From Archangiaceae bacterium (GTDB taxonomy: Bacteria; Myxococcota; Myxococcia; Myxococcales; Myxococcaceae): a stretch of DNA of 38,639 nucleotides. The stretch is from contig JAACJQ010000146.1 in assembly GCA_016879935.1 (NCBI GenBank), positions 1-38,639 of the forward strand, read 5' to 3'. Position 1 is the first letter of the stretch. The number at the start of each line of letters is the position of its first letter. Position numbers and translations under genes: made by a program. Below are positions 27,603 to 35,350 of the stretch, in pieces. Below the pieces are notes generated by a model, which made no database searches, was not told the DNA's origin, and saw nothing but the letters and a program-made list of their open reading frames with translations.

Positions 27603-27962
27603 ATGTCACTGTCGAAGTGTCCGTCGTGCGTTGGCGTCGTGCCGAATCAGGCGACCACGTGTCCACATTGTGAAATCCCGCTCGCTCCGAAGTCGTCGCT
27701 GGGGAAGGTCGCGCTCGGCCTGCTCGGTGGCCTCGGCGCCTCGATGACGTTGATGGCCTGCTACGGCGCGCCTGCCTCGAGCTGCTACCAGCGCGTTCAG
27801 CTCCCCGACGGCGGCAGCACCACCGACTACGTCTGCGATGACGAGCGAGACGCGTCCATCGCCATTCCCGGTGATGCGGGCGTGCGCGATGGCGGTGCCA
27901 CCGACGGCGGCGCTTCGGATGCCGGCGTCACCGATGCGGGCGCAGGCGACGGCGGACCCTGA
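27603..27962 (+). CDS. Zinc-ribbon + membrane/lipobox peptide with ACYGAP motif; candidate radical SAM substrate
   Basis: This 119-residue protein has four parts. Residues 5-24 form a zinc ribbon (CPSC...CPHC: Cys6, Cys9, Cys20, Cys23). Residues 34-51 are one hydrophobic helix (LGKVALGLLGGLGASMTL). Cys53 sits in MACYGAPASSC, lipobox-like, and is followed by Cys61 and Cys78 in a short polar region. The last 35 residues are an acidic DAG/DGG repeat tail. The Cys-x-Tyr-Gly-x-Pro motif after a hydrophobic helix recalls the small lipoproteins (C-x-YG-x-P) encoded beside radical SAM/SPASM enzymes in Bacteroidetes. The radical SAM gene starts 5 bp downstream. A modification target is inferred; a simple membrane zinc-ribbon protein is the alternative. 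Confidence 0.72.
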   Translation: MSLSKCPSCVGVVPNQATTCPHCEIPLAPKSSLGKVALGLLGGLGASMTLMACYGAPASSCYQRVQLPDGGSTTDYVCDDERDASIAIPGDAGVRDGGATDGGASDAGVTDAGAGDGGP

Positions 27963-27967
27963 GCGCC

Positions 27968-29197
27968 ATGTCACGCCGGCAAGACCTCTCGGCTGCGTGG
28001 CACCCGGCGTACGTCGTCTGGGAGCTCACGCTCGCGTGTGACCAGCCCTGCACGCACTGTGGTTCGCGGGCAGGCACGGCGCGCGAGGGTGAGCTCTCGA
28101 CCGAGAAGGCGCTCTCGGTCGTTCACGAATTGAAAGAGCTCGGCGCGCGAGAGGTCGTGCTCATCGGCGGAGAGGCCTACCTGCACCCGGGCTTCCTCGA
28201 CGTGGTGGCGGCGCTGAAGAAAGCGGGCATTCGGCCCGTGCTGACGACGGGCGGCCGGGGCATCGACCGCTCGCTCGCCTTCAAGATGGCAGGCGCGGGG
28301 CTGTTTCAGGCCTCCGTCTCCATCGATGGCCTCGAGCCCACGCACGACCTCATGCGCGCGGCGAAGGGCAGCTTTCAGTCGGCCACCGCGGCCATCGGCT
28401 TCATGCGCGAGGCGGGCATTCGTGTGTCGGCGAACACGAACGTGAACCGGCTCAACCTCGGCGACCTCGAGGCGCTGTTCGAGCACCTTCGCGCGCAGGG
28501 CATCACCGCCTGGCAGGTGCAGATCACCGCGCCGCTTGGGCGGGCGGCAGACCGGCCCGCGATGCTGCTCCAGCCGTGGGACCTCATCGAGCTCGTGCCC
28601 CGCGTGCTCGCGCTGAAGCAGAAGGCGTGGGCCGAGTCGCGCATCGCCGTGATGCCGGGGAACAACCTGGGCTACTTCCACCCCGACGAACCGAAGCTGC
28701 GGTCGCTCTCGGGCGCGCCTGCCGATGACACGTGGGGCGGCTGTCACGCTGGCCGCTTCGTGATGGGCATCGAGGCGAACGGTGGCGTGAAGGGCTGCCC
28801 GTCGCTGCAACCGTCGTACATCGGCGGCTCGTTGAAAGACGCGTCGCTGCGGTCGATCTGGGAGTCGTCCGAAGAACTCGCCTTCACGCGAAACCGCACG
28901 ACCGAAGCGCTGTGGGGTTTCTGCAAGACCTGCCCGTTCGCGAAGGAGTGCCTCGGCGGCTGCACCTTCACCGCCCACGCGGTGCTCGGCCGGCCCGGCA
29001 ACAACCCGCTCTGCTACTTCCGCGCGCAGTCGCTCAAGAAGCAGGGCAAACGGGAGCGCCTGGTGCTGAAGGAGAGCGCTCCCGGTCGGCCGTTCGACAA
29101 CGGCCGCTTCGAGCTGGTCGAAGAGCCGTTCGATGCACCCGACGTGAAACCGCCGACGCCACGCGAGCTGGTGAAGAAGCGGGCGCCGGCGAACTGA
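27968..29197 (+). CDS. Radical SAM / SPASM-domain peptide-maturase-like enzyme
   Basis: The 409-residue protein has the radical SAM cluster motif ACDQPCTHCGSRAG with Cys24, Cys28 and Cys31 (Cx3Cx2C). The TIM-barrel elements are VVLIGGEAYLHPGF (GGE, SAM amine binding), PVLTTGGRGI, ASVSIDGLEPTHD and VSANTNVNRLN. A C-terminal SPASM region (~255-360) supplies further Cys: WGGCHAGR, GVKGCPSL, WGFCKTCPFAKECLGGC and NNPLCYF, enough for two auxiliary 4Fe-4S clusters. This architecture modifies ribosomal peptides or protein side chains. It follows the zinc-ribbon/ACYGAP gene by 5 bp and probably acts on it. A basic Lys-rich tail ends the protein. Its stop abuts the msr gene's stop (TGATCA). Confidence 0.92.
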   Translation: MSRRQDLSAAWHPAYVVWELTLACDQPCTHCGSRAGTAREGELSTEKALSVVHELKELGAREVVLIGGEAYLHPGFLDVVAALKKAGIRPVLTTGGRGIDRSLAFKMAGAGLFQASVSIDGLEPTHDLMRAAKGSFQSATAAIGFMREAGIRVSANTNVNRLNLGDLEALFEHLRAQGITAWQVQITAPLGRAADRPAMLLQPWDLIELVPRVLALKQKAWAESRIAVMPGNNLGYFHPDEPKLRSLSGAPADDTWGGCHAGRFVMGIEANGGVKGCPSLQPSYIGGSLKDASLRSIWESSEELAFTRNRTTEALWGFCKTCPFAKECLGGCTFTAHAVLGRPGNNPLCYFRAQSLKKQGKRERLVLKESAPGRPFDNGRFELVEEPFDAPDVKPPTPRELVKKRAPAN

Positions 29198-34384: not shown

Positions 34385-34444
34385 GCCGGGTCGATAGCAC
34401 GCCGGCCTCGCCTCCTGCGCCGGGCGCGCTACGGTGGCGGCTGC

Positions 34445-35350
34445 ATGTCCCGCGTGCGTCACGAGCGCCTCTGCATTCTGTCGCGTCAGAAGTCGTTGTA
34501 CTCGACGGCGCGGCTCGTCGAAGTCGCCGAAGCGCTGGGGGCACGCCCCATCGTGATGGACACGTTGCGCTGCACGATGGTGGTGGGGCCCGGCGGTTCG
34601 AAGCTGCTCTACCGCGGCGTCGCCGTCGAAGGCCTGTCGGCGGTGATTCCCCGCATCGGCACCAGCGTCACCGCGTACGGCATGCAGGTCGTCAACCAGC
34701 TCGACTCCATGGGCGTGCCCGTCGTGAACCGCGCGAGCGCCATCGCCCGGAGCCGCGACAAAGTGCGGTGCCTTCAGCTGCTCGCCGCGGGCAACGTCGC
34801 CGTGCCGCGCACCGTGATGGCCAGCGACACCTCGCACATCGTGCGGCTCGTCGAGGCCGTCGGCGGGCTGCCGTGCGTCATCAAGCTGCTGCGTGGCACG
34901 CAGGGCGTCGGCGTGATGCTGGCCACGACGATGACCGAAGCGCGCACCATCGTCGACACGTTCACCTCGCTCGGCCAGGAGATTTGTCTGCAGGAGTTCA
35001 TCGCCGAGTCGTCGGGCCGCGACGTGCGCGCGCTCGTGGTCGGTGACCGCGTCGTCGGCGCCATGCGGCGGCAGGCGCGCGCGGGCGAGTTCCGCAGCAA
35101 CATTCACCGCGGCGGAGAAGGCAGCCCCATGACCCTCGAGCCCGCGTACCGCGAGACGGCGGTGAAGGCCGCGAAGCTGGTGGGCCTCGACATCTGCGGT
35201 GTCGACATGCTCGAGGGGCGCGATGGCCCTCGCGTCATGGAGCTCAACTCGTCGCCCGGCTTCGAAGGCCTCGAGCGCGCGACGAAGCAAGACGTGGCGA
35301 GCGAGATGGTGAAGTTCGCGCTCGAAGTCGCGGCGCGCCCCCGGAGCTGA
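34445..35350 (+). CDS. RimK-type ATP-grasp alpha-L-glutamate ligase
   Basis: The start at ATG 34445 gives 301 residues, the size of RimK. The N-terminal domain has LCILSRQKSLYSTARLVEVA, AVIPRIGTSVTAYGMQVVNQ and VPVVNRASAIARSRDKVRCL. The ATP-grasp core follows: LPCVIKLLRGTQGVGVML (ATP Lys and glycine loop), QEFIAESSGRDVRALVVGD, MRRQARAGEFRSNIHRGGEG (substrate/phosphate loop) and the metal ligands in GVDMLEGRDGPRVMELNSSP. RimK adds glutamate to ribosomal protein S6; relatives make F420, glutathione-like or poly-glutamate products. The full set of conserved residues suggests an active ligase. No partner gene is adjacent. Its last codons resemble the repeats that follow it. Confidence 0.93.
   Translation: MSRVRHERLCILSRQKSLYSTARLVEVAEALGARPIVMDTLRCTMVVGPGGSKLLYRGVAVEGLSAVIPRIGTSVTAYGMQVVNQLDSMGVPVVNRASAIARSRDKVRCLQLLAAGNVAVPRTVMASDTSHIVRLVEAVGGLPCVIKLLRGTQGVGVMLATTMTEARTIVDTFTSLGQEICLQEFIAESSGRDVRALVVGDRVVGAMRRQARAGEFRSNIHRGGEGSPMTLEPAYRETAVKAAKLVGLDICGVDMLEGRDGPRVMELNSSPGFEGLERATKQDVASEMVKFALEVAARPRS

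Follow-up and report, generated by a model that had tools for sequence, protein, structure and literature searches.

Two adjacent genes on the forward strand of the window, the whole stretch of 38,639 nucleotides of Archangiaceae bacterium DNA that was analysed, probably form a two-gene system that belongs to the splicease branch of the radical SAM/SPASM peptide maturases. The first gene encodes P0001 (27603..27962), a small precursor- or lipoprotein-like protein of 119 residues, and the second encodes P0002 (27968..29197), a radical SAM/SPASM enzyme of 409 residues. The features listed in the initial annotation, namely the coordinates of both open reading frames, the cysteine motif, the hydrophobic helix, the sequence MACYGAPASSC, the 5-base gap between the genes and a complete radical SAM/SPASM enzyme, were all recovered. 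Computational support for the assignment came from the co-occurrence and adjacency of the two proteins, the invariance of a Tyr-Gly pair, the kinship of the enzyme and the recurrence of xYG partners beside its relatives.

Spliceases are radical SAM enzymes that excise a tyrosine fragment from the peptide backbone, and the PlpX and PlpXY spliceases were reportedly described by Morinaka et al. in 2018 and Scott et al. in 2022. PlpXY excises tyramine at X-Tyr-Gly, with MYG and LYG as natural sites, and acts on the tag PIRPLYGLPI (PlpA tag LYGLP) with no requirement for a leader (PMC10533398). The passage of PMC10533398 that cites Scott et al. 2022 gives 939 predicted splicease systems, and the present loci may already be listed among them.

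The enzyme and its relatives

P0002 matched the Pfam Radical_SAM and SPASM models. The CxxxCxxC motif consisted of Cys24, Cys28 and Cys31, while the seven SPASM cysteines were Cys259, Cys277, Cys319, Cys322, Cys328, Cys332 and Cys349, and all ten were fully conserved across the 14 rows of an alignment of relatives (A2). The AF2 model had a pLDDT of 82 and the nearest solved folds, none of them close, were SkfB, PqqE and SuiB.

The best NCBIfam match was TIGR04103 (nif11-class maturase 3), the family that includes PlpX, at 424 bits against a cut-off of 725. The score against TIGR03913 was 362 bits (cut-off 591.75), and P0001 was not a DUF1843 protein. PlpX itself was assigned to IPR026482 in a review. 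With the TIGR04103 model, a paralogue of P0002 (L063) scored 628 bits and a Nostoc plasmid enzyme, 47% identical to P0002, scored 853 bits, above the cut-off. In a tree that was built by a quick method, had long outgroup branches and used the Nostoc plasmid enzyme to stand in for PlpX, the window-type enzymes made up a single clade (SH-aLRT 99), whose sister group includes members of both TIGR04103 and TIGR03913.

Like the PlpX and PlpXY systems, the pair combines a radical SAM/SPASM enzyme, with CxxxCxxC and a seven-Cys SPASM domain, and an adjoining precursor with an X-Y-G(-x-P) motif. It differs in that the enzyme falls below the family cut-off, that neither an adjacent PlpY nor a Nif11 or NHLP leader is present, and that P0001 is instead composed of a zinc ribbon, a helix, a lipobox and a single YG. 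Two of these differences, the TIGR04103 score and the lack of PlpY, with which PlpX works, argue against the splicease assignment, as does Cys as X, for which no tested precedent was met in the literature examined; no PlpY-like RRE was seen among the flanking genes at the locus. These genes, for an EamA transporter and MsrAB on the other strand, looked unrelated to the pair. A RimK-like gene in the window (34436-35350) recalls the one near the Aureibacter enzyme and is probably a coincidence.

The small protein and its Tyr-Gly motif

P0001 is a real gene, with a dN/dS of about 0.17-0.23 when compared with three orthologues from the same genus, indicating purifying selection, and 41 full-length copies in the phylum. 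An antisense open reading frame (27606-27974) was without support, the sense frame being the one under purifying selection, and was rejected. The copies were retrieved from 195 phylum genomes with the A3 alignment of the small protein (27 rows) as the profile, and the matches below these 41 were nearly all fragments covering the ribbons of other proteins.

The enzyme adjoined the small protein in 38 of the 41 copies, in both co-directional and divergent arrangements, and the three non-adjacent partners (G155:C77, G107:C152 and G107:C973, at a contig end) were all in enzyme-bearing genomes. A relative of P0002 was present in 53 of the 195 genomes, and thirteen loci with enzyme relatives were retrieved from other genomes. 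The partner was found in 35 genomes, all within the 37 with an enzyme of the window type (fragmentary or damaged in some cases), and in none of the other 158 (Fisher p ~1e-36, uncorrected for shared ancestry). The two enzyme genomes without a partner had either a decayed enzyme (G071) or a contig edge (G017). The enzyme-substrate pairing proposed in the initial annotation was supported, with no genome having the small protein without the enzyme, and P0002 very probably acts on P0001. Among cultured relatives, Pyxidicoccus caerfyrddinensis CA032A and Sorangium cellulosum So ceGT47 have both genes. One genome (G068) has two partners in tandem. In another (G153:C172, L014/L032), an intact enzyme adjoins a partner from which most of the helix and the CYGA sequence are missing through an in-frame deletion, possibly an assembly error.

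The only invariant residues in A3 were Cys6, Cys9, Gly11, Cys20, Cys23, Tyr54 and Gly55, and the same seven were invariant in a second alignment, A4 (32 rows). The invariance of Tyr54-Gly55 in both alignments exceeds chance. These two residues lie in the sequence CYGAP (residues 53-57, 27759..27773), within the stretch M51-A-C53-Y54-G55-A-P57-A-S-S-C61. The conservation expected earlier for the whole CYGAP motif held for the YG, while the Cys and the Pro were usual but variable: of 38 unique partners, 31 had Cys before the YG and the rest had Leu, Val, Ile or Ala, and 33 had a Pro three residues after the Tyr. Cys53-Tyr54-Gly55 is very likely the site of modification, and CYGAP is proposed as a splice site by comparison with the XYG sites of spliceases (PMC10533398). 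This resemblance, overlooked in the initial annotation, is the best lead to what the chemistry may be.

The YG motif lies at the end of a single hydrophobic, signal-anchor-like helix (residues 33-54, 27699..27764) that was apparent from both the AF2 model and the hydropathy. These residues include a lipobox-like sequence, LMAC (residues 50-53, 27750..27761). A hydrophobic helix followed by a lipobox-like Cys was present in 43 of 43 partners, the Cys being preceded by Ala, Ser or Asn (Asn in 4 of the 43) and located 1-8 residues before the Tyr of the YG motif, in agreement with the membrane or lipid anchoring predicted earlier. The position of this Cys, at residue 44-62 in the partners and residue 53 in P0001, is unusually distant from the N-terminus and argues against a canonical lipoprotein signal. 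Since the lipobox Cys is separate from the YG when X is not Cys, its role would appear to be lipidation and not that of X, and lipidation at Cys53 is somewhat favoured.

The N-terminal zinc ribbon core, C6xxC9-x10-C20xxC23 (27618..27671), gave a weak DZR match, below threshold, and was modeled by AF2 with a pLDDT of 83-90. On the other side of the YG motif, Cys61, Asp69 and Cys78 were at least 90% conserved (A4) and strands were predicted at residues 63-66 and 72-75, suggesting a Cys61-Cys78 beta-hairpin (CYQRVQLPDGGSTTDYVC, 27783..27836). The DAG/DGG-rich tail (residues 87-119, 27861..27959) is disordered (pLDDT <50). It was discarded as a specific feature, as dozens of unrelated open reading frames in this genome have the same composition, and it is not a conserved element, since a MopE-like metal-binding sequence replaces it in some relatives.

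YG motifs and zinc ribbons beside related enzymes

Whereas the window-type enzymes adjoin a protein with a zinc ribbon, a helix and xYGx, the Nostoc TIGR04103 enzyme adjoins a Nif11 precursor that ends in ALYGLPPELF. Sister enzymes of the TIGR04103 type from the same taxonomic family (L075-L087) are accompanied by short precursors ending in xYGLPPP, mostly after a GG leader; a LanC-like gene, by our reading of the sequence, adjoins two of them (L084, L085). The partners of other related enzymes had the motifs RYGVIRPP (five repeats), RYGLR (four repeats), KYGL(I/V) (several repeats) and xYG in the form LYGxx (ten repeats). The gene downstream of the paralogue L063, a third enzyme copy in this genome (G000:C161), encodes a tail-anchored protein in which VYG[AM]P occurs four times (L063:2680-3234), and a similar tail-anchored VYGA(A/P) protein lies upstream of the enzyme at L056.

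In a third clade, the C-terminal end of the enzyme is fused to an extension in which a hydrophobic segment precedes a lipobox-like Cys and (E/D)YGVxPP repeats (L090, L091, L093, L094 and L096, in genomes G165, G164, G194, G003 and G157, respectively). These proteins are apparent enzyme-substrate fusions, and such distant relatives of P0002 may carry out the modification in cis on a lipoprotein substrate that is part of the same chain. Tandem small genes with tails of the form APECQ...xYGVxxYGxG were seen downstream of the enzyme at L092 (2134-3713), and on an Agathobacter rectalis plasmid a short open reading frame ending in GPVMYGTGVRM (L151:2683-2898) lies just upstream of a distant enzyme relative.

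The TIGR03913 GDL-motif maturases, which occur with DUF1843 peptides, resemble the pair in belonging to the sister group, in having a zinc ribbon and in that several of the peptides carry PYG or LYG. They differ in that their ribbon is fused to the C-terminal end of the enzyme, while here it is in the substrate, and in that their short peptides have no membrane helix. The DUF1843 peptides beside TIGR03913-type enzymes (L099:2159-2872, L100 and L152) had PYG, LYG, MYM, MYA or LYA near the N-terminal end; the replacement of YG by MYM or LYA in some of them suggests that the chemistry may vary across the wider family.

Ribbons of similar spacing were found at the C-terminal end of the enzyme in Azospirillum and Aureibacter, at the N-terminal end in Tropicibacter, as a separate gene just downstream of the enzyme (L064, L065, L068, L074 and L083) and on the substrate at L088 and in the window type. 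The ribbon of the substrate resembles those fused to enzymes in spacing only, all of them having the generic double-zinc-ribbon spacing. The participation of the ribbon in recognition, suggested in the initial annotation, is a reasonable proposal given that related enzymes have a ribbon of this kind of their own, and the chances are about even that the ribbon of P0001 docks the enzyme, acting in cis as part of the substrate and replacing PlpY.

Proposed reaction and alternatives

By analogy with PlpXY, the reaction is likely to be excision of tyramine at the YG motif, which would leave a product lighter by 135.07 Da (C8H9NO). One point against this reading is the location of the YG at the distal end of the helix, which would require modification to precede export. 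The zinc ribbon and helix would jointly serve as leader and signal, and the modified P0001 would then be inserted in the membrane. Cleavage at the lipobox Cys53 by signal peptidase II would free a lipidated product that carries the ketoamide at the surface of the membrane and, beyond it, the small disulfide hairpin and then the flexible acidic tail. A comparable order, with modification before export, is thought to apply to MNIO-modified bufferins, whose precursors have Sec or lipoprotein signal peptides, although the enzyme class and the Cys motifs are unrelated (PMC12452194). As to the role of the product, one guess is that it is a covalent protease-directed or cross-linking surface group.

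A different radical reaction on the same substrate, such as a Tyr54/Cys53 cross-link, a thioether or an epimerization, with no tyramine excision, is unlikely but deserves consideration. SPASM enzymes are chemically diverse, P0002 is under the curated TIGR04103 cut-off, and the prevalence of Cys as X would suit thioether chemistry. The Tyr and Gly are constant, however, while 7 of 38 partners have Leu, Val, Ile or Ala as X, and the nearest family is that of the spliceases, whose above-cut-off member has an xYG precursor.

It is improbable that P0001 is left unmodified and serves as a zinc-ribbon membrane anchor or scaffold that brings the enzyme to another substrate. Such a function would fit the recurrence of zinc ribbons as accessory domains of related enzymes, the three partners located apart from the enzyme, though in genomes having one, and the G153 partner that lacks the helix and CYG, but the latter is a single case that could be an assembly error, the invariance of the YG would be left unexplained, and relatives have multiple or fused YG repeats. 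Still less probable is the parallel drawn in the initial annotation, that the pair is a myxobacterial version of the Bacteroidetes radical SAM/lipoprotein pair TIGR04133/TIGR04134. Both consist of a small lipoprotein adjoining a SPASM enzyme, and the Bacteroidetes lipoprotein presumably shares the lipobox and a YG-x-P motif. The enzyme similarity is low, with a TIGR04133 score of 127 bits (cut-off 425), well under the TIGR04103 and TIGR03913 scores, and the parallel was abandoned. No partner reached the 39.8 bits of the TIGR04134 profile. In the genome search the profile was silent in this genome but also in all 14 controls, a weakly informative result with no positive control.

With the splicease assignment, an orphan enzyme-lipoprotein pair found across the Myxococcota gains a specific reaction that can be tested against an exact predicted mass. 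The electrophilic backbone group would then be borne by a protein anchored in the membrane instead of a secreted peptide. Zinc ribbons may replace RREs for docking in this branch of the family, shifting between the enzyme, a separate gene and the substrate, and the apparent enzyme-substrate fusions would offer single-gene systems for splicing studies.
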